From the NCBI RefSeq assembly GCF_010731635.1, contig NZ_AP022583.1, positions 1,984,001-2,048,000 on the forward strand: a stretch of 64,000 bases of DNA, given 5' to 3'. A model generated the notes under the pieces. The model saw only the letters and a list, made by a program, of their open reading frames with translations, was not told where the DNA came from and searched no databases. A program made the translations under genes and the position numbers. Of this stretch, positions 23,384 through 32,461 are shown piece by piece. Numbering within the stretch: the stretch's first letter is position 1; each line of letters begins with the position of its first letter. This DNA comes from Mycobacterium noviomagense (GTDB lineage Bacteria; Actinomycetota; Actinomycetes; Mycobacteriales; Mycobacteriaceae).

Positions 23384-24736
23384 ATGACCGCACGCATGCT
23401 GCAGCGGCTGTCCACGGTCGTGGGAGCTAAGCACATCAGCGCCGATTCCGACGTCCTGGCCGCCCGCAGCGTCGACCACACCGGCCGCCACCGCGGTCAA
23501 GCGAGTGCGCTGGTGCGTCCCGGCTCCACCGACGAGGTCGCCGAGGTGCTGCGCGTGTGCCGCGACGCCGGCGCACACGTCACCGTTCAAGGCGGATGCA
23601 CATCGCTGGTCGCCGGCACCGTCCCCGAGCACGACGATGTGCTGCTGTCCACCGAGCGACTGAACACCGTCGGGTCGGTCGGCAGCGTCGAGCGCCGTCT
23701 CCAGGTCGGCGCCGGGGCCACGCTGGCCGCCGTGCAGCAGGCTGCGAGTGGTGCCGGTCTGGTCTTCGGCGTCGACTTGGCCGCCCGCGACACGGCAACC
23801 GTCGGCGGCATGGCTTCCACCAATGCCGGCGGACTGCGCACTGTGCGCTACGGCAACATGGGCGCGCAGGTGCTCGGCTTGGACGTCGCGCTGCCCGACG
23901 GCTCGGTGCTGCGCCGGCACAGCAGGGTGCGTGCCGACAACACCGGCTACGACTTGCCCGCGCTGTTCGTCGGCGCCGAGGGAACCCTCGGCGTCATCAC
24001 CGCGCTCGACCTGCGTCTGCACCCGGCGCCCTCGCACCGGGTGACCGCCATATGCGGCTTCTCCGACCTCGGCGCATTGGTCGATGCGGCGCGAGTGTTT
24101 CGCGATCTCGACGGCATCGCGGCGCTGGAACTGATCGACGGCCAAGCAAGTGCCCTGACCGCAGAACGTCTCGGAGTGGCGGCGCCGGTGAGCGGGGACT
24201 GGCTGCTGGTGGTGGAGTTGGCGGGCGATCACGACCAGACCCCGCGGCTGGCCGGCGCGTTGGACGGCGCGTGGCTGTGCGGCGAGCCCGCGGTCGGTGT
24301 GGATGTCGCCGCGCGGCAGCGGCTCTGGCGGGTGCGGGAATCGGTGCCGGAAGTTCTCGGCGCCTACGGTCCGCCAGTGAAATTCGACGTGTCACTGCCG
24401 CTGTCGGCGATCTGCGGCTTTGCCCACAAGGCTGCGAAGCTGGTGGACCGCTATGCTCCCGGCGCCCTGTCGCTGTTGTTCGGCCACATCGGCGAAGGCA
24501 ATCTGCATCTGAACGTCCTGCGTTGCGGGCGCGAGCAGGAACCCGACCTGTGCGCGGCGATCATGGAGTTGATCGCCGCCTGCGGCGGCAACGTCAGCTC
24601 CGAACACGGCGTGGGTAGCCGCAAACGCGCTTACCTCGGCATGTCCCGCGAACCGGCCGACATCGCCGCGATGCGGACGGTCAAGAAGGCTTTCGACCCG
24701 ACCGGCTACCTCAACGCCGCTGTGCTTTTCGACTAA
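23384..24736 (+). CDS. FAD-linked oxidase, GlcD type, Rv0161 orthologue
   Basis: 450 residues. The PCMH-type FAD domain occupies residues 35-215 (HVTVQGGCTSLVAGTVPEH, ATVGGMASTNAGGLRTVRYG). The C-terminal oxidase domain ends with LFGHIGEGNLHLNVL and SSEHGVGSRKRAYLG, the GlcD/D-lactate dehydrogenase signatures that hold the metal and substrate. Oxidises a 2-hydroxy acid or similar, donating electrons to quinone or a partner. Its stop overlaps that of the convergent TetR gene. Confidence 0.92.
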   Translation: MTARMLQRLSTVVGAKHISADSDVLAARSVDHTGRHRGQASALVRPGSTDEVAEVLRVCRDAGAHVTVQGGCTSLVAGTVPEHDDVLLSTERLNTVGSVGSVERRLQVGAGATLAAVQQAASGAGLVFGVDLAARDTATVGGMASTNAGGLRTVRYGNMGAQVLGLDVALPDGSVLRRHSRVRADNTGYDLPALFVGAEGTLGVITALDLRLHPAPSHRVTAICGFSDLGALVDAARVFRDLDGIAALELIDGQASALTAERLGVAAPVSGDWLLVVELAGDHDQTPRLAGALDGAWLCGEPAVGVDVAARQRLWRVRESVPEVLGAYGPPVKFDVSLPLSAICGFAHKAAKLVDRYAPGALSLLFGHIGEGNLHLNVLRCGREQEPDLCAAIMELIAACGGNVSSEHGVGSRKRAYLGMSREPADIAAMRTVKKAFDPTGYLNAAVLFD

Positions 24737-25269
24737 TCACTCGCTTTGATGCCCACAGCGTGGCGGAGTTGCGCCAAGAACTGCTCGGCGTCGTCGGCTC
24801 GGACCATGTAGTGCGAGATTGCGATCCGGATCGCGGCTGCGGCTTTGACCGCGCCGCCGGGCCCCGGAAGCAGGCGTTGCAGTCCTTCACGCATTTCCGG
24901 AAGGACACGGGAGAACTGCGCGATCACATGCTCGGGCTCGATGTCGATCATGCGCACGCCCGAGTAGGAGTATTGGTATTCGACGATGAAACGTAAGGCG
25001 GCGTCGAGCCTGTCGGCGCCCTTAAGACCGGCTGTTGCCTTGGCTAAACCGCTTTCGAAAGTCTGACGTTCGTAGCTCGAAAACGCATCCAGCAACTCCT
25101 CTTTCGACGCGAACCAGCGGTAGAGGGTCGGACGCGAGACATGCGCCTGCGCGGCGACGTCAGAGAGGCTGAGCTTGCGTTTGCCGTTGCGGCTGACCAC
25201 CTCGGCGGTGGCCGCAAGGATCCGCTGCCGGGTCGAAGTGTCGGTGTCGGTGGTCGTCGGGTGGTTCAC
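24733..25269 (-). CDS. TetR-family regulator, candidate master of the 24.7-32.5 kb cluster
   Basis: 178 residues from GTG 25269; an open frame continues upstream to 25377 but would cover the operator. N-terminal helix-turn-helix: RILAATAEVVSRNGKRKLSL and AQAHVSRPTLYRWFASKEEL. The rest is a helical ligand domain with no recognised relative. A TTTACA-N14-TGTCAC dyad sits 11 bases before its start, and four more copies lie before its downstream neighbours, so autoregulation and control of the cluster are likely. The inducer is probably a CoA thioester or acid from the pathway. M. tuberculosis lacks it here. Confidence 0.85.
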   Translation of the reverse strand: MNHPTTTDTDTSTRQRILAATAEVVSRNGKRKLSLSDVAAQAHVSRPTLYRWFASKEELLDAFSSYERQTFESGLAKATAGLKGADRLDAALRFIVEYQYSYSGVRMIDIEPEHVIAQFSRVLPEMREGLQRLLPGPGGAVKAAAAIRIAISHYMVRADDAEQFLAQLRHAVGIKASD

Positions 25270-25279
25270 GTCTGAAAAC

Positions 25280-25305
25280 TTTACAAACTTTGGTCGAAGT
25301 GTCAC
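25280..25305. promoter_or_regulatory. Dyad operator 1 of 5 (TTTACA-N14-TGTCAC), TetR/SDR divergent promoter
   Basis: TTTACA at 25280-25285 and TGTCAC at 25300-25305, exactly 14 bases apart. It covers the TetR ribosome-site region and lies 88 bases before the divergent SDR-like gene. Same spacing and half-sites as four other copies downstream. Confidence 0.7.
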
Positions 25306-25393
25306 GCTGTTTTCGTGCCACTGTCTTGGTCCTTCGGGGGAGCCTTTCCGCCCGCCGGCGAGGTAACTGACCACCAAATCCTAGACGCTGGTC

Positions 25394-26062
25394 GTGACTG
25401 AAGCTGAGCCCGCCGTGCCGGCCCAGCCTCCGCGCGCCGTCATGCTGACCGGCGCATCGTCACCGGTAGCCCGCGCCACGGCGGCGCGATTGGCTCGTCG
25501 GGGCGATCTGGTGCTGATAGGCAGCCGGCGCCCCGAGATCTGTGAGCGGCTCGCCGCTCGTCTTCGGGCACAAGGCGCGACGGCGTTCGCTGCCTACCTC
25601 GATCTGGCCGACACGTCGTCGATCGATTTGTTCGTCGAGTCGGCGCGTTATCTCGTCGGCGAGGTGGACGTGCTGATCACCGACGCTGGCCTCTCAGCCG
25701 CCAGAAGCGATATGTTCGGCGCGCAACACCTTGCGGCACAAGTGATTCCGCCGATGATCAGGCGTGGCCGTGGCGACGTGGTTCTGGTCAGTCCGGACAT
25801 CCTTGCCGGCGCGACGCCACCAAATGCGTGCCGGCGTGCCCTGGACGCGTGGTTATCGGGCTTGGACGCCGAATTCGTCGGCACCGGCGTGCGGGCGTCG
25901 ATCATCCGGTCCGCCGGGATCGCCGCTCGCGTGGCACCGGCCGACGTCGCACGTGTGATCGCAGCCATGGTCGGGTCCGGCGAGTCGATGCACCTGCGGC
26001 TTGTTGAGGTCATCTCGCAGCACCCGGCGCCCGCACCGGCCAAAGAGCGAAAAGCTCGCTGA
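25394..26062 (+). CDS. SDR-fold protein lacking the usual catalytic Tyr/Lys
   Basis: 222 residues from GTG 25394. The Rossmann part is normal (MLTGASSPVARATAARLARR, YLDLADTSSID, DVLITDAGLSA). Where SDRs have YxxxK the sequence reads TPPNACRRALDAWLSG, so the tyrosine is replaced by Asn or lost and the lysine is not conserved. It may bind NAD(P) without standard chemistry, or be a structural or regulatory member. It is divergent from the TetR gene with the dyad between them, so it probably belongs to the regulon. Confidence 0.82.
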   Translation: MTEAEPAVPAQPPRAVMLTGASSPVARATAARLARRGDLVLIGSRRPEICERLAARLRAQGATAFAAYLDLADTSSIDLFVESARYLVGEVDVLITDAGLSAARSDMFGAQHLAAQVIPPMIRRGRGDVVLVSPDILAGATPPNACRRALDAWLSGLDAEFVGTGVRASIIRSAGIAARVAPADVARVIAAMVGSGESMHLRLVEVISQHPAPAPAKERKAR

Positions 26063-26096
26063 GCGTCGCCGACCGGCCCCACATCCTCGGCGGAAG

Positions 26097-26906
26097 CTAG
26101 GTTCGGCGGCGCACCAGCACGGACTGCTGAATGCCGCCCACCGCTTCGTGCTCGTCGAACAGGGTGCCCACGGTCGTTCCGATACCGTCTGGGCCGTAAC
26201 TGGTTTCGGCGCGAATACCAATCCACTCGCCCTGCGGAATCCGGTGCACATGCACAACGAGGTCGTTGTTGAGAAATGTCCATTTGGTGATGTCGAGTTT
26301 CGACCCGATGCCATTGGCGCAATCAGCCACCGCGAAGAGTCGCTCCAGCGGCGACATCGTTTCACCCTTGACGAGATCGACGGTGGGCTTGATCCACGAT
26401 TCGCCCGGCCCGGCATCGAGGGGCGGGGTGAGCCAGCGCCAATCCAGGCTGTGCACGTAGTTGCGGTCGAAATCTTTTTCCAGGTTGCGGCTGCGCCCTT
26501 GACTGAGCGGCCCGAGCGGCGGGGCTGGCGCGTTCACGACATCCGCTGTGTCGAGCTGCAGGAGCCGCCACCCGCTGGCCTGGGCGACGGGTCTGGGCTG
26601 ACCGCCCGGCCCCAGGCCCAGCATCTCGGCGGTAAGCAACTCGATCTGCTTGCCGGGCCGTTCGATCCGCGAGCGAACCCAGAAGTCGCCTTCCGCCGGT
26701 ACGGGACCCAGCAAGTCGACGACGACGCGGCTGAGCCGGGTGTCGTCGCGGCGAGCGCAGCGCTCGAGTGCCCGCACCAATAGCGCGGACACCGGTGCGG
26801 CGTGCTGCATCGACGCTGACCACGTGCTGCGCACCAGATCGGTTGCAGTGAACTTCTCGCCCAACGGATCGGCAGAGTCGACCAGCTCGTAGTACGAGTC
26901 GCTCAT
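26097..26906 (-). CDS. TesB-like thioesterase family protein (first)
   Basis: 269 residues from ATG 26906. Double-hotdog TesB-like fold of the kind annotated as thioesterase-family proteins in mycobacteria: FTATDLVRSTWSASMQHAAP at the front, ERLFAVADCANGIGSKLD and WIGIRAETSYGPDGIGTTVG in the second hotdog. Expected to hydrolyse or bind acyl-CoA thioesters. It begins 17 bases after the stop of the SMP-30 gene, so the two form an operon driven from the dyad at 27794. The exact substrate is unknown. Confidence 0.82.
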   Translation of the reverse strand: MSDSYYELVDSADPLGEKFTATDLVRSTWSASMQHAAPVSALLVRALERCARRDDTRLSRVVVDLLGPVPAEGDFWVRSRIERPGKQIELLTAEMLGLGPGGQPRPVAQASGWRLLQLDTADVVNAPAPPLGPLSQGRSRNLEKDFDRNYVHSLDWRWLTPPLDAGPGESWIKPTVDLVKGETMSPLERLFAVADCANGIGSKLDITKWTFLNNDLVVHVHRIPQGEWIGIRAETSYGPDGIGTTVGTLFDEHEAVGGIQQSVLVRRRT

Positions 26907-26922
26907 GCGTCTTTCGCCAGTG

Positions 26923-27753
26923 TCACGGCAGGCCGGCGCCGGGAATGTCGACGGTGACGGCGTCCAGCCGAGACAACCGAGTTCCCTTGAGCCGCTTGGG
27001 ATACACATCGGTGCTCGACAACAGAAAAAGGGTACGGCGTGCCGGACCGCCGAGCGTGCAGGCGATGGCGGCCCGCTCGCCGATGTCGATGCGGTCCGTT
27101 ACCACGCCGCCGGCGGTGATCCGTTCGAACTGGTGGCGCAGAGTCATCGCCGTCCACACCCCGCCGTCGGCGTCCAGCGCGATACCGTCGGGTGGTCCGT
27201 CCAGCCCGTCGGCGAAGGTCCGGCGGTCGGTGAGGGCACCGTCCTCGGTGATGCGGAAGGCGGTCAACCGGCGCGCCATCGACTCGGCGACGATCAACGT
27301 TCGGTCGGGCGTGATCACCATGCCGTTAGGGAAATCTAGGTCTTCAGCGACGACGCTCACCGAATTGTCGGGATCGAGGCGCACGATCACACCGCCGTGG
27401 AAGCCCTGGGACCCGATGTAGGCGCGCCCGGCGTCGTCGACGACCATATCGCCGAGCTCATCCGGTACCGCCTCGGCAAGGTCGGCGATCGTGGTCACGC
27501 TGTCGCCGTCATAGCGCAAAACCAGCCGGTCTTCGGTGGAGGTGATCAGCAGTGAGCCGTCCGGCCGAAAACCCAACCCGGACGGGCTGTGACCAGGCAG
27601 CGGCAACGTCGTCATCGAGCCGCCCAGCGTGACGGTGTGCACCGCCTCGCCGAGCATGTCGGAGAACCACAGCAGGCCCTCGAACCAACGTGGGCCTTCA
27701 CCGAAGCAGAAGCCTTCGGCTAACGGCGTCAGCTGGTCAACTGTCAACGCCAT
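26923..27753 (-). CDS. SMP-30/gluconolactonase-family lactone hydrolase
   Basis: 276 residues, six-bladed propeller of the SMP-30/gluconolactonase family. Metal-site positions are recognisable: Glu19 (GEGPRW), Asn143 (DFPNGMV), Asp189 (PPDGIA). Hydrolyses lactones or organophosphate-like esters. An AGGAGG lies somewhat far (about 13 bases) from the ATG at 27753. The upstream dyad (27794-27819) is shared with the divergent F420-type gene. In a CoA-thioester pathway it could open a ring lactone; this is inference. Confidence 0.85.
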   Translation of the reverse strand: MALTVDQLTPLAEGFCFGEGPRWFEGLLWFSDMLGEAVHTVTLGGSMTTLPLPGHSPSGLGFRPDGSLLITSTEDRLVLRYDGDSVTTIADLAEAVPDELGDMVVDDAGRAYIGSQGFHGGVIVRLDPDNSVSVVAEDLDFPNGMVITPDRTLIVAESMARRLTAFRITEDGALTDRRTFADGLDGPPDGIALDADGGVWTAMTLRHQFERITAGGVVTDRIDIGERAAIACTLGGPARRTLFLLSSTDVYPKRLKGTRLSRLDAVTVDIPGAGLP

Positions 27754-27793
27754 TCGATGTGTCCTTACCTCCTGTGACGACGCCTACCGAAGG

Positions 27794-27819
27794 TTTACAG
27801 AGTAGCCGACAAGTGTCAC
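27794..27819. promoter_or_regulatory. Dyad operator 2 of 5, SMP-30/monooxygenase divergent promoter
   Basis: TTTACA 27794-27799 and TGTCAC 27814-27819, 14 bases apart. Lies 40 bases from the SMP-30 start and 60 bases from the divergent F420-type oxidoreductase start. Confidence 0.7.
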
Positions 27820-27879
27820 GGAAGTTCCACCGACCGTGTACCGTTTCGGTGCAACGGCGCTACCAGCGAAACGGCGAGC

Positions 27880-28806
27880 ATGTACTTCTCGATCACCCAT
27901 CCCATGCACAGCCACCCGTATCATCCGGAATTGGTTAGCGGGCAGGGTGTTTCGACGGTCGCCGCAGCGGCTGAAGCGGCAGGCTTCCACGGATTCGGGT
28001 TCACCGACCACCCTGCTCCCACGCAGCGCTGGCTAGACGCCGGCGGTCATGACGCTCTGGACCCGTTTGTGGCGATGGGGTTCGCCGCCGCGCGCACGGC
28101 CACGTTGAGGCTGATCCCGAACATCGTGGTACTGCCCTACCGAAACCCGTTCCTGGTGGCCAAATCCGGCGCGACGCTGGATTTGTTGTCCGGTGGCCGG
28201 TTCACGCTGGCGGTCGGCGTGGGCTACCTCAAACGCGAGTTCGCGGCCCTCGGGGTCGACTACGACGAACGGGCCGAGCTGTTCGATGAGGCGCTGGAAG
28301 TGATCCGCGCGGTGTGGACCACCGACGGCCTGTCCTTCGACGGACGGCACTTCACCGCCCGAGGGATCACCGCGCATCCGCGGCCGGTGAGCCAGCCGCA
28401 CCCGCCGATCTGGATCGGCGGCAATACCGGGGCGGCCCGCCGGCGCGTCATCAAGCACGGCGACGGCTGGTGTCCGTTCCCCGCCCCGGCGGCACTGGCC
28501 CAGACCGCCCGCACGGCCGCCATCGACTCGATCGAGCGGCTCGGCGCCGGCATCGAGGATTTGCGCCGCCGCTGTGAGGCGGCGGGCCGGGATTGGTCGG
28601 TAATCGACGTGGTATTCACCAACTTCGACGGCGGCAGGCCGGCAAGCGACGACTTCAATGCTGACGCCTTTCTGACCGGTCTCGACAAGCTGGCTGCGTT
28701 GGGCGTCACCTGGGTGCAGGTCAGCTTGCCAGGCGACAGCTTGGCGCACGCGCTGGAAACCATCGACCGGTTCCGGGCCTTGGTGATCGACTCGGGCCAA
28801 CCGTAA
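27880..28806 (+). CDS. LLM-class F420-dependent oxidoreductase
   Basis: 308 residues. Luciferase-like fold matching the TIGR03619-type F420 group: MYFSITHPMHSHPYHPELVS start, FGFTDHPAPTQRWLDAGGHD, LIPNIVVLPYRNPFLVAKSG, GGRFTLAVGVGYLKREFAAL and PPIWIGGNTGAARRRVIKHG. Catalyses hydride transfer or monooxygenation with coenzyme F420 (or FMN). Together with the lactonase next door it could carry out an oxygenation and ring-opening pair, but that is inference. The TesB-like gene follows 38 bases later with its own dyad. Confidence 0.9.
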   Translation: MYFSITHPMHSHPYHPELVSGQGVSTVAAAAEAAGFHGFGFTDHPAPTQRWLDAGGHDALDPFVAMGFAAARTATLRLIPNIVVLPYRNPFLVAKSGATLDLLSGGRFTLAVGVGYLKREFAALGVDYDERAELFDEALEVIRAVWTTDGLSFDGRHFTARGITAHPRPVSQPHPPIWIGGNTGAARRRVIKHGDGWCPFPAPAALAQTARTAAIDSIERLGAGIEDLRRRCEAAGRDWSVIDVVFTNFDGGRPASDDFNADAFLTGLDKLAALGVTWVQVSLPGDSLAHALETIDRFRALVIDSGQP

Positions 28807-28809
28807 GGC

Positions 28810-28835
28810 TTTACAAGTTTCGAGGGAAATGTCAC
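28810..28835. promoter_or_regulatory. Dyad operator 3 of 5, upstream of the TesB-like gene
   Basis: TTTACA 28810-28815 and TGTCAC 28830-28835, spaced by 14 bases. It ends 9 bases before the GTG at 28845, so the transcript is probably leaderless or the site blocks elongation from the upstream gene. Confidence 0.7.
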
Positions 28836-28844
28836 CCTCCCTGT

Positions 28845-29726
28845 GTGACCACGGAATCTGAGCAGACCCATTGGTCGGTTACCGGCCTGCTTGACTTGTT
28901 CGACGTGCAGGCCGCCGAAGCCGACCGCTTCACCGGCGACACGGGGATCGCGGGCCAAGACGAGCGGCAGGTGGTGGAAGGCACCCAGGTGCTGGCGCAA
29001 GCGATTGTCGCAGTGGCCAAACGGTTTCCGGATAAGTCGGTGCGCTCCGCGCACGCGGTATTCGTCCGCGCCGTCATGGTCGGTCCGCCGGTCGAATTCG
29101 ACATCGACGTCGTGCACGAGGGTCGCTCCACCGCAACCGCTGTCGTGTCGGTGCAGCAGAACGGCCGTCGCTGCATCACGGTGACCGCGCTCGCCGACGT
29201 CCCGTCGCCTGACGTCATCACCCACCACTTGCCGCGTCCCGAGGTGGCCCCGCCCGCTGCGGCGAACCCTTCGCCCATGCCGATGGCCGGTCGCGAAGTC
29301 CGGCTGGTCGACGTCATCGATGTCAACAGCCCCGACGAGGTCGGGCCGCCGGAGCTGTATGCCTGGCTGCACTACGACCCGATCCCCACCCGCGACGATC
29401 TGGCCAAGGCGCTGATCGCGTATTTCACCGGCCACCTGGGCATCTCGACCACGATGCGCGCCCACGAAGGCATCGGCACCAGCCAGGCGCACCTGACCGT
29501 GTCGACTGCGCCGATGACGATCGCGGTCAGCTTCCACGAACCCGTGTCGTGGACCGGTTGGTTGCTCTACACGCACGAGAGCACTCAGGTCGGGGCGGGC
29601 ATGTCGTATGTCCGCGGCACGGTGCACACCGAAGAAGGTGAGTTGATCGCGTCGTTCGCTCAGGAAGCGCTGATCCGGCCGCTGAGGCAGACCGACACCG
29701 CGATCAAAGCCGAAGCGCGGCTCTAA
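28845..29726 (+). CDS. TesB-like acyl-CoA thioesterase II (second)
   Basis: 293 residues from GTG 28845. Two hotdog domains: residues 1-120 (VVEGTQVLAQAIVAVAKRF) and 155-290 (WLHYDPIPTRDDLAKALIAY, SFHEPVSWTGWLLYTHEST, GELIASFAQEALIRPL). The second domain keeps the Gln of FAQE and a Ser/Thr near HESTQ, but the Asp of the classical YASD motif reads YFTG, so activity may be altered. Its end faces the DUF427 gene across a hairpin. Confidence 0.85.
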   Translation: MTTESEQTHWSVTGLLDLFDVQAAEADRFTGDTGIAGQDERQVVEGTQVLAQAIVAVAKRFPDKSVRSAHAVFVRAVMVGPPVEFDIDVVHEGRSTATAVVSVQQNGRRCITVTALADVPSPDVITHHLPRPEVAPPAAANPSPMPMAGREVRLVDVIDVNSPDEVGPPELYAWLHYDPIPTRDDLAKALIAYFTGHLGISTTMRAHEGIGTSQAHLTVSTAPMTIAVSFHEPVSWTGWLLYTHESTQVGAGMSYVRGTVHTEEGELIASFAQEALIRPLRQTDTAIKAEARL

Positions 29727-29783
29727 CTTCCGTTCATGTGTCTCACTGGCCACGCCAGTCTCTGCAGCGGGGGACTACCCGAT

Positions 29784-29835
29784 GTGCCCGCCTTCGAGCG
29801 ATTCCTAGCTGGGCTAATCGCTGCTAGGCGGGCAC
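29784..29835. terminator. Large hairpin between convergent genes
   Basis: Outer arms GTGCCCGCC (29784-29792) and GGCGGGCAC (29827-29835) are perfectly complementary; inside them AGCGAT pairs with ATCGCT and TAG with CTA, so the whole 52 bases can fold. It lies between the ends of the TesB-like and DUF427 genes, so it is probably a two-way terminator, though there is no clear U-tract. No other copy was noticed in the window. Confidence 0.5.
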
Positions 29836-29861
29836 GTTGACTATCCACTCCGTGGCGTGAC

Positions 29862-30542
29862 TCATGTGGCAGGCGGGAGTTCAGCAACGACGTCGGCGCG
29901 CGTCTCGTCGAAGCTGACGTAGCCCCTGATTGGCAGGCTCTCCGCAGGCGGGTCCGGATAGCTCCACGCCACGTCCTCGACCACAGTGTCGCCGATGACG
30001 GCCCGCCAATATGTCGCGAAACCCTTGTAGTTGCAATAGGTCGACGTATCGGTCTGCCGCAGCAGATCGGTGCGGACGTGCGACGGATCCACGTAGAGCC
30101 GCGGCTGCAGCGCGGTCTCGAAAACGATGACGGTGTCGTCGGTGTCGACCAATACCCCGCCTGCGATGTGAACGCGCAGCCGGCGCCGCGTCGGCCGGCA
30201 ATCGACACGGTGATACGGATTGGGCGGATAGTGCACGAGCCGGCGGCCCTCCTCCAGCCACGTGTCGACCGCATCCCACGGCACATGCACGAACCCGGGT
30301 GCTTCCGGCACCGGCTCGTTGGGCAGCCCGTCGACCTCCGATGCGGGAAACGCGTAGCTGAGCGGTTGATTTCGGCGATGCACTAGCAATGCCCGCTCGG
30401 TGTCGATCACCATTCGTCCGTCTCGGAAACCCTGGACGCGACGCGGATGCGGCTCGACGTACACCGGGTCGTCGGGCAGCGGTGGCGAGAACCACCCGGC
30501 GGGATCGTTGCTCAGCGGGCCTCGCCCGGCGACCAAGCTCAT
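29862..30542 (-). CDS. Two-domain DUF427 protein
   Basis: 226 residues from ATG 30542, ribosome site GGAGGAAC. Residues 30-110 resemble a degenerate DUF427 half and residues 115-220 a full copy (VHIAGGVLVDTDDTVIVFE, YVDPSHVRTDLLRQTDTSTY, YCNYKGFATYW). Biochemical role unknown. The dyad at 30561 shared with the CoA-transferase promoter suggests it belongs to the same regulon. A single-domain relative is at 5399-5773. Confidence 0.87.
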   Translation of the reverse strand: MSLVAGRGPLSNDPAGWFSPPLPDDPVYVEPHPRRVQGFRDGRMVIDTERALLVHRRNQPLSYAFPASEVDGLPNEPVPEAPGFVHVPWDAVDTWLEEGRRLVHYPPNPYHRVDCRPTRRRLRVHIAGGVLVDTDDTVIVFETALQPRLYVDPSHVRTDLLRQTDTSTYCNYKGFATYWRAVIGDTVVEDVAWSYPDPPAESLPIRGYVSFDETRADVVAELPPAT

Positions 30543-30560
30543 AGTTCCTCCACGCCTCAG

Positions 30561-30586
30561 CTTACAAATCATGCCAGCTCTGTAAA
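30561..30586. promoter_or_regulatory. Dyad operator 4 of 5, DUF427/CoA-transferase divergent promoter
   Basis: CTTACA 30561-30566 and TGTAAA 30581-30586, 14 bases apart: the most symmetrical copy, with TTACA/TGTAA perfectly complementary. It is 19 bases from the DUF427 start and 29 bases from the CoA-transferase start. Confidence 0.72.
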
Positions 30587-30615
30587 CACCGTCGAGCGAT
30601 GGTTCATGGCAGGGT

Positions 30616-31797
30616 ATGGCCATGGCCGGACCACTGGAAGGCGTCAAAGTCGTCGAGCTCGGTGTCTGGGTGGCCGGCCCGGCCGCCGGAGCCATCCTCG
30701 CGGACTGGGGTGCCGACGTCGTCAAAATCGAGCCGCCGACCGGCGACCCGGGACGCGCATTCGGGCGCATGCTGGGGCTCGATCTCGACACCAACCCACC
30801 GTTCGAGATGGACAATCGCTCCAAGCGCAGCATCGTCCTCGACCTCACCAGCGACGACAGCCGCACGACTGTATTCGAATTGCTCAGTGGCGCAGATGTT
30901 TTCGTGACGAACATCCGCCTCGGCGCGTTGCAGCGCCTCGGCTTGGATTACGAATCGCTGGCCGCCGACTTTCCCCGGCTGGTCTACGGGCTGATCACCG
31001 GCTACGGCGAAACCGGTCCCGACGGCGACCGGGCCGCCTACGACATCGCGGCGTTCTGGTCGCGTGCCGGGGTGGCTCATCTTTTGACCCGTCCCGGTGA
31101 CACGCCACCGTTTCAACGGGGCGGCATGGGCGACCACATGGCCGGCATGACGCTGGCGGCCGCGATCTGCGCGGCGCTGATTGCCCGCGGCCGAACCGGC
31201 ACCGGTCAGTTGGTCAGCACGTCGCTGTATCGCCAGGGCGCTTACACCGTGAGCTTCGACTTGAACACCTACCTGATGACGGGCCACACCATCGCCGTCG
31301 GGCAACGCGAGTCGATGGGCAACCCGTGCATGAACAACTACACGGCCGGTGACGGGCGGCGATTCTGGATCGTCGGCTTGCAAGGCGACCGGCACTGGCC
31401 TGCACTCTGCCGCGTCGTGGGCCACCCCGACTGGCTGACCGATCCTCGCTTTTCCGATGCCCGCGCCCGCGCGCACCACGCCGTCGAGCTCATCGCCCAG
31501 CTAGACGACATCTTCGCGACCAAACCGCTCGACGAGTGGGCGCAGATCTTCGCTGCCGAACCGGAGTTCTTCTGGTCGCCGGTCAACTCGCTCGAGGATG
31601 TCGTGGCCGACCCCCAGTTCCACGCCGCGGGCGGTCTGGTCGACGTACCGCACCCGGATGGAGCCGTCGCGATGGCCGCGACGCCCGCGGATTTCCACGG
31701 GACCCCGTTGACGCCGCGATCCACCGCACCAAAACTTGGTCAGCACACCGAGGAAGTCCTCGCCGAACTGAAGGCGCGTCGCGCCGGTCGGGACTGA
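30616..31797 (+). CDS. Class III CoA-transferase (CaiB/BaiF/Frc family)
   Basis: 393 residues; an internal ATG two codons later is also possible. Family III signatures: LGVWVAGPAAGAILADWGAD, VKIEPPTGDPGR, DNRSKRSIVLDL, and AYDIAAFWSR, where Asp143 is the predicted catalytic aspartate forming the mixed anhydride. Moves CoA from one acid to another, or isomerises 2-methylacyl-CoA. In this cluster it is the most likely step that activates or deactivates a carboxylic acid. Its stop lies six bases before dyad 5. Confidence 0.92.
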   Translation: MAMAGPLEGVKVVELGVWVAGPAAGAILADWGADVVKIEPPTGDPGRAFGRMLGLDLDTNPPFEMDNRSKRSIVLDLTSDDSRTTVFELLSGADVFVTNIRLGALQRLGLDYESLAADFPRLVYGLITGYGETGPDGDRAAYDIAAFWSRAGVAHLLTRPGDTPPFQRGGMGDHMAGMTLAAAICAALIARGRTGTGQLVSTSLYRQGAYTVSFDLNTYLMTGHTIAVGQRESMGNPCMNNYTAGDGRRFWIVGLQGDRHWPALCRVVGHPDWLTDPRFSDARARAHHAVELIAQLDDIFATKPLDEWAQIFAAEPEFFWSPVNSLEDVVADPQFHAAGGLVDVPHPDGAVAMAATPADFHGTPLTPRSTAPKLGQHTEEVLAELKARRAGRD

Positions 31798-31802
31798 CCG
31801 AC

Positions 31803-31828
31803 TTTACAGATCCGGCCGAAACTGTCAC
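31803..31828. promoter_or_regulatory. Dyad operator 5 of 5, upstream of the unknown 190-residue gene
   Basis: TTTACA 31803-31808 and TGTCAC 31823-31828, 14 bases apart. Lies in the short gap after the CoA-transferase and 60 bases before the next gene, as for dyad 2. Confidence 0.68.
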
Positions 31829-31888
31829 GCTGGGGTGGACCGGCGCGATGCTCCGGCGTGGCCTTGCTTGAACTGCCGAAGGGATGCG

Positions 31889-32461
31889 ATGACGACCTCC
31901 ACCCCGGTGCACAACCCGTGCTCATCGGAGCAACTCAGCGATCCCTATTGCGGGGTGCTGACGTATCGCCTCGACGTCGTCGCGAACACCGTCGTCGATG
32001 TGGTGCGCTCGGCGGGTGGATGGCTATATGACAGAGTGGCGGCCGGCTGGGATGTCCACGTTCTCTTGCCGCACCGCGGCGATACCCGACCGTTGCAGAT
32101 CCTCGGCGTACACGCCGACGACCTCGACGAGCAGTTTGCGCCCGCGAGCGCACCGTGGCTCGGCCAAGGGTTAGCCGTCAGCGCCGACGTATTCGCAGCC
32201 CATCCACGTATCCGCGAGTTGGTGTTCGAGGCCCTGGACCATCGCCTGACGGAAGTCGCGCTCTGGGATGACGGTTGGCCGTTGGCGGTCGGGCGCCGCA
32301 CGACCACTGTGCAGCATGTGCTCAGCGGAGCGGCCCGGATTTTCAAGAGTTATGCCCTTGCGGAAGCGGGGATTTCAGCGCAGCCCGCCGGCCCCACGGA
32401 GACACTGCGCAGCGACATGAAGACATGTTTGCCCGTCGCTTCAGACTTGGTGCCGGTTTAG
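31889..32461 (+). CDS. Unknown 190-residue protein in the cluster
   Basis: Starts at ATG 31889; an open frame begins further upstream at 31835. I recognise no family. Features seen: hydrophobic/aromatic front half (VVDVVRSAGGWLYDRVAAGW), a mixed middle (HADDLDEQFAPASAPW) and a C-terminal segment with an RRTTTV motif before a likely helix (GAARIFKSYALAEAG). No signal peptide or membrane helix. The dyad upstream ties it to the regulon. Its stop overlaps the end of adhE1. Confidence 0.75.
   Translation: MTTSTPVHNPCSSEQLSDPYCGVLTYRLDVVANTVVDVVRSAGGWLYDRVAAGWDVHVLLPHRGDTRPLQILGVHADDLDEQFAPASAPWLGQGLAVSADVFAAHPRIRELVFEALDHRLTEVALWDDGWPLAVGRRTTTVQHVLSGAARIFKSYALAEAGISAQPAGPTETLRSDMKTCLPVASDLVPV

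Follow-up and report, generated by a model that had tools for sequence, protein, structure and literature searches.

Several described TetR-family regulators resemble the system reported here. In mycobacteria, BkaR (Rv2506/MSMEG_4718) is an autoregulated TetR protein with an adjacent multi-gene metabolic cluster and a repeated conserved palindrome, and its 24-bp motif, with the 16-bp core GTTA(N)T(N4)A(N)TAAC, is reported to be bound by one dimer (PMC3920632). The QacR operator is 28 bp long and accommodates two dimers on overlapping palindromes, with the proximal subunits sharing base pairs (PMC6018408). Mce3R of M. tuberculosis is described as a TetR-type repressor that has a 25-bp site and whose target genes are related to lipids and cholesterol (PMC11667970), and palindromes have been predicted near conserved, divergently placed mycobacterial TetR genes, 11 of them highly significant (PMC4482099). 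Here we analyzed a gene cluster of Mycobacterium noviomagense within a stretch of 64,000 nucleotides (NZ_AP022583.1, positions 1,984,001 to 2,048,000; hereafter the window, whose coordinates are used below). A first-pass annotation had read the nine genes at 24733..32461 as a TetR regulon marked by five copies of a 26-bp dyad, TTTACA-N14-TGTCAC. These are a TetR gene (tetR), a gene for a short-chain dehydrogenase/reductase (SDR)-like protein (sdr), two TesB-like thioesterase genes (tesB1, tesB2), an SMP-30-like gene (smp30), a luciferase-like monooxygenase (LLM)-class oxidoreductase gene (llm), a DUF427 gene, a CoA-transferase gene and gene 31889-32461. We found no report of the motif or the regulon in open-licence PMC papers. 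Taken as a whole, the locus is likely to be a local, autoregulated TetR regulon with four operators in a reduced catabolic island.

Dyad sites in the cluster and the genome

All five sites were present where the first-pass annotation had placed them (25280, 27794, 28810, 30561 and 31803), each with 14-base spacing. Three had been counted as identical in both half-sites, but we found four exact copies of TTTACA-N14-TGTCAC, at 25280, 27794, 28810 and 31803. Putative operator 1 (25277..25308, + strand, core 25280-25305) lies between tetR and sdr and has the best matrix score of the window, 45.0 bits. Putative operator 2 (27791..27822, +, core 27794-27819) is found between smp30 and llm, putative operator 3 (28807..28838, +, core 28810-28835) upstream of tesB2, and putative operator 4 (31800..31831, +, core 31803-31828) upstream of gene 31889-32461. 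The fifth, operator-like site (30558..30589, - strand, core 30561-30586), between the DUF427 and CoA-transferase genes, was indeed symmetric, yet it reads CTTACA-N14-TGTAAA, has two mismatches on the minus strand and is without the conserved flanks. It scored 13.5 bits on the symmetric matrix and 4.6 on the asymmetric one, compared with 27.6–36.3 and 33.3–45.0 for the other four, and is rare in relatives. This site is a weaker relative of the four exact sites. The distances from site to start codon were 10 bases for tetR, 88 for sdr, 40 for smp30, 60 for llm, 9 for tesB2, 18 for DUF427, 29 for the CoA-transferase gene and 60 for gene 31889-32461.

A genome-wide scan with the exact motif yielded four matches in 4,779,798 bases, all of them in the cluster and spanning ~6.5 kb, and the exact motif was thus not equally common at unrelated places. 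Allowing up to two mismatches gave 65 matches in the genome (36 + 29), below the 108 (53 + 55) of a reversed control and therefore no excess, and up to three mismatches gave 15 matches in the window against 17.5 expected, which is the chance level. Because loose matches occurred at or below control level, only near-exact sites carry signal; the weak genome matches were rejected as added regulon members and were not counted.

Conservation and shape of the motif

To follow the motif in related genomes, we used 80 Mycobacterium loci (L030–L109; fetched loci are labelled L and genomes G) obtained by TetR homology, the best 80 of 145 relatives, with genes called by our own codon-usage script. These loci contained 158 exact copies at spacing 14, none at spacings 10–13 and 16–18, one at spacing 15, and none of the reversed control. 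Although only 9.9% of the loci is non-coding, 147 of the 158 exact sites were located in non-coding DNA. The observed motif is real. Its description as a 26-bp dyad held for the symmetry and fell short in length, since the conserved unit is wider, a dyad of ~32 bp with a variable centre (AnC-TTTACA-AAt...aAg-TGTCAC-GCT, from profiles of 38–39 sequence clusters). Written as AnCkTkACA...TGTmAmGnT, it has outer half-sites 20 bp apart, centre to centre, and the flank profile showed conservation of the half-sites and flanks and none of the middle bases.

The half-sites extend beyond the genus. Six TetR homologues with 48–55% identity, from two other genera (L165–L170), had the same half-sites in the intergenic region beside tetR. 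In L165–L169 the half-sites lay at 0, 9, 20 and 29, which makes two N14 dyads staggered by 9 bp; all four fit NTNACA/TGTNAN in three of these loci, and one was degenerate in L167 and L169. The called gene across the gap encoded a P450 of one family in all five (c12, 56–59%). L170 had one N14 dyad with an extra half-site and a different neighbour. Genome G099 (L160:1-19999, L161:1-20000) held three divergent TetR homologues (44–55%), several P450-family genes and sites within ~40 kb.

The TetR protein and its tie to the motif

The proposed reader of the dyad is the product of tetR (24733..25269, - strand), a TetR-family regulator of 178 residues with a Pfam TetR_N domain (PF00440, 1.1e-13, 51.2 bits against a cut-off of 24). 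Its AlphaFold2 model showed an all-helical TetR fold with a C-terminal ligand domain, and the recognition-helix stretch SRPTLYRWF was mostly invariant or nearly so in alignments of homologues (the later of which omits L168 and L159). The protein matched 15 named NCBIfam TetR subgroups, including KstR, FasR, BetI and MftR, all far below cut-off (KstR 30.9 against 280). In plasmid records it had only two weak matches, with 34–37% identity over 54–61% of its length.

Across 118 genus genomes, TetR (E <= 1e-45) and the exact motif occurred together in 91, TetR alone in six, the motif alone in none, and neither in 21, one of which was identified by elimination (Fisher p = 3e-18). Co-occurrence in 91 of 97 TetR-bearing genomes against 0 of 21 others bears out the core of the first-pass annotation, namely a cluster defined by a single TetR-type regulator and a single repeated dyad. 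Among 301 family genomes (TetR at E <= 1e-20) the corresponding numbers were 30, 8, 7 and 256 (p = 2e-27). As the genomes counted are related, these p values overstate independence. In the TetR-bearing family genomes, 95 of 125 exact sites had a TetR homologue on their contig at a distance of no more than 30 kb. Several TetR paralogues elsewhere start no more than 35 bp from an exact site (G197:1029957, G224:4471340, G285:2289969, G377:C30:533473), and others had no such close site (e.g. G273:38364, G099:C11:300261). Together with the fold, these associations indicate that the TetR protein is very probably the reader of the dyad, which would provide an exact predicted operator for an uncharacterized TetR present in 97 of 118 sampled genus genomes.

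Genes with an upstream site

A gene was scored as having a site when at least 12 bits were reached on the symmetric matrix within 250 bp upstream. Only loci with a complete gene start, far enough from the locus end, were scored, hence n ranged from 4 to 80 of the 80 loci. Sites were commonest upstream of tesB2 (78/78), smp30 (70/72), gene 31889-32461 (43/43) and sdr (4/4), intermediate for tetR (26/80), and rare or absent for llm (4/76), DUF427 (4/70), tesB1 (1/73) and the CoA-transferase gene (0/61). None were found at control promoters (hyd 0/56, FAD 0/74, adh 0/6, fcdh 0/6), and a wider regulation of neighbouring genes was rejected on the hyd and FAD counts. Away from known sites, 23 of 1,383,660 positions reached 12 bits. 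The nine target genes originally proposed are therefore too many: the CoA-transferase and DUF427 genes rarely have a site, and since the weak fifth site is all that they have in the window, the claim has to be cut. Two sites scoring 16.6 (L005/L007) were set aside, being a single duplicated sequence at an aldo-keto reductase gene call, either next to it or within it.

Larger islands with the same regulator

Islands of ~20 kb with the same TetR and sites throughout occur in other mycobacteria (L143/L144, L145/L146, L150/L151, and also L147) and in another genus (L155). In addition to the genes above, the islands encode P450s, a 4Fe-4S ferredoxin, a flavoprotein of the Baeyer-Villiger monooxygenase (BVMO) type, an HSL-like esterase, an SDR, an HpcH/HpaI aldolase, a zinc-type alcohol dehydrogenase, NIPSNAP, acyl-CoA dehydrogenase, WS/DGAT, aldehyde dehydrogenase, SnoaL and a kinase-like protein. 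One island P450 is related to CYP268A2 (E 1.6e-122), and the best PDB matches of the BVMO-type flavoprotein are steroid and cyclohexanone monooxygenases. In L153, L173 and L174, the FAD-side cluster is joined to some island genes. The genome of the window has no close copy of the island BVMO (matches up to 38% identity, the best-scoring at 36%), and its island aldolase search, run without a positive control, gave no match at E 1e-20. The window cluster looks like a reduced form of these P450/BVMO islands, and on this reading it would be reduced rather than ancestral.

Other features were observed around the islands and P450 genes. A DNA photolyase-like gene (c13; L143:2925-4217) borders the islands in four fetched loci (L143, L146, L150, L157). 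A conserved, unlinked exact site (TTTACAGCCTCGGTCAT...) lies by aldehyde dehydrogenase-like and P450-like genes (L131:1498, L138:1498), and sites near-identical to it were found in G136, G253, G333, G341, G383, G401 and G402. At a second P450 locus, a perfect palindrome GTTACAG...CTGTAAC with 14-base spacing (G000:C1:1040762-1040787; L205:10760-10791) is located just upstream of a P450-ferredoxin pair. Related P450s had a site of at least 12 bits upstream in 16 of 30 loci (L175–L204), the 30 being the best-matching genomes of 49 matching among 60. The locus of this sister palindrome has a different TetR of its own, next to a paralogue of protein 31889-32461, and because of that TetR we kept it apart from the regulon.

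Products of the cluster genes

The sdr gene (25394..26062, +; adh_short 1.1e-16) was present in 4 of the 80 loci. Active SDRs have the motifs TGxxxGxG and YxxxK; direct reading of this protein shows TGASSPVA in place of the former and no YxxxK at the expected position, and the product is a probable pseudoenzyme. TesB-like acyl-CoA thioesterases 1 and 2 (tesB1, 26097..26906, -; tesB2, 28845..29726, +) both match 4HBT_3 / 4HBT_3C, and smp30 (26923..27753, -) encodes an SMP-30/gluconolactonase-like protein (SGL 8.4e-50). By its model score, the product of llm (27880..28806, +) is an F420-type LLM oxidoreductase of the TIGR03619 F420_Rv2161c subfamily (275.7 bits against a cut-off of 166.9). The two weak regulon members are the DUF427 (NTP_transf_9) gene (29862..30542, -; PF04248 9.7e-33) and the family III CoA-transferase gene (30616..31797, +; CoA_transf_3 2.6e-115), the product of which was below the cut-offs of all seven NCBIfam models matched. 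In Candidatus M. methanotrophicum (L032:8530-9534), the locus retains tetR and one operator and lacks the other targets, and its CoA-transferase gene is fragmented.

Gene 31889-32461 (+) codes for what the first-pass annotation had listed as an unknown protein, and it had no Pfam match at E 0.01. A structure model, built from 36 of 63 relatives aligned with the window protein (partial and some close ones were omitted), showed a PIG-L/LmbE deacetylase fold. The N-terminal zinc motif of PIG-L/LmbE deacetylases is HPDDE, which is absent at its position in all 36 aligned rows; the window protein has VVANTVVDVV. The protein belongs to a family of 811 database relatives; none of the 120 listed has a Pfam domain, and nearly all of those with a name are annotated as "hypothetical". 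The closest species-named relatives among the matches listed are from Mycobacterium xenopi (73%) and M. heckeshornense (69%).

Alternative explanations and proposed regulation

Several observations weigh against a local regulon read by this TetR. The counts are not independent, because many genomes and loci are closely related, and the site sequences collapse to 38–39 clusters. A site directly upstream of tetR was found in only 26 of the 80 loci; where tetR has no site of its own, it mostly stands downstream of smp30 and tesB1, in the same orientation. Some of the loci scored had also served to train the matrix, therefore site presence is partly built in, but the contrast between genes is not. 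TetR occurred without the exact motif in 6 of 97 genus genomes, 7 of 263 TetR-less family genomes carried the exact motif once or twice, and completeness was below 90% for 3 of the 21 TetR-less genus genomes. In G157, one of the six genus genomes with TetR and no exact motif, tetR (L158:2415-2936) is located between FAD and adh, and the target genes and operator are absent at that locus. The remaining 30 of the 125 exact sites in family genomes had no TetR homologue within 30 kb on their contig, and therefore other proteins or paralogues may share the site. Such sharing could mean that a paralogous TetR or an unlinked protein recognizes the dyad, with this TetR merely nearby, a reading for which the two or three TetR paralogues of many genomes (four in one) and the sister palindrome with its different TetR also speak. 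However, the window genome has a single homologue found at E <= 1e-20 (11 of 78 first-look candidates scored) and four intact sites, the exact motif was absent from all 21 genus genomes without a close homologue, and the distant homologues retain half-sites at their own promoters; we thus regard another reader as improbable. The non-coding position of most sites, mostly near gene starts, and the similarity of TTTACA to a -35 box would also suit a sigma-factor promoter signature or a repeat element. This is very unlikely, as the dyad reaches both flanks at a fixed spacing of 14 and is tied to TetR-bearing genomes. The promoter reading was rejected because the flank profile has no constant -10 element, and the repeat reading because the middle bases vary while half-sites and flanks are conserved.

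A further question is what the regulator and the enzymes do. Two thioesterases would end, not feed, beta-oxidation, and their presence, together with DUF427, WS/DGAT and the PIG-L-fold protein lacking the metal motif, which are not standard catabolic parts, could indicate that TetR is an activator or that detoxification or lipid remodelling, and not carbon catabolism, is the role of the cluster. We consider this rather unlikely, since the operators lie 9–60 bp from the nearest start codons, as repression predicts, and since the islands combine a P450 and a ferredoxin with a BVMO-type enzyme, an esterase, an aldolase and an acyl-CoA dehydrogenase, a set that suits catabolism.

On the preferred reading of a local TetR repressor, the TetR protein would bind the 32-bp dyad at the four operators and repress tetR/sdr, smp30-tesB1 with the divergent llm, tesB2 and gene 31889-32461. 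The short distances between operators and start codons suit such repression. The DUF427/CoA-transferase pair would be under weak control at best, via the degenerate fifth site. Two TetR dimers per operator (QacR type) would be the likeliest geometry, because outer half-sites 20 bp apart and a variable centre fit proximal subunits meeting in the middle. A hydrophobic or CoA-linked pathway intermediate would probably lift repression. The catabolism of CoA thioesters or lactones suggested by the first-pass annotation is plausible. The enzymes look like the retained core of the larger island, with its P450s, ferredoxin, Baeyer-Villiger-type monooxygenase, esterase, dehydrogenases, aldolase, acyl-CoA dehydrogenase and CoA-transferase, which would most likely convert a terpenoid-like ketone, cyclic or branched, into CoA thioesters by oxidation. 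From the enzyme types, a terpenoid or cyclic ketone is proposed tentatively as the substrate. It is also possible, if somewhat doubtful, that TetR and its paralogues form a genus-wide family marking P450/BVMO islands with one 32-bp operator, and that the cluster in the window and in slow-growing relatives is a stripped remnant under the original switch. Such a remnant would keep a new zinc-motif-less PIG-L-fold subfamily, repeatedly linked to P450 genes and maybe acting as a carrier, chaperone or metal-free hydratase/lactonase. The operator tags the genes that belong to the pathway. It could help to chart such islands in other genomes and to search for the inducer.

Comparison with known systems

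The palindromes predicted near mycobacterial TetR genes (PMC4482099) are the same kind of prediction as ours; that source lists them by Rv numbers, onto which this TetR could not be mapped, nor could the motifs be compared. Mce3R, with its 25-bp site, is likewise a mycobacterial TetR-type regulator, but it is described as a double TetR in one chain with an asymmetric site (PMC11667970), while the present regulator is a single TetR of 178 residues with a symmetric site. As in the BkaR regulon (PMC3920632), a TetR gene stands beside a metabolic cluster with a repeated palindrome, with autoregulation predicted in our case. Unlike the BkaR motif as reported, the dyad here spans ~32 bp and sets its outer half-sites 20 bp apart; the genes are different too. 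The long dyad is shared with QacR (PMC6018408). A QacR-type arrangement would set the distal half-sites ~20 bp apart, and an extended dyad with widely spaced outer half-sites is present here (compare the half-sites at 0, 9, 20 and 29 in L165–L169). In contrast to QacR, the targets here are enzymes rather than an efflux pump, and the occupancy by two dimers is suggested by the spacing of the half-sites.

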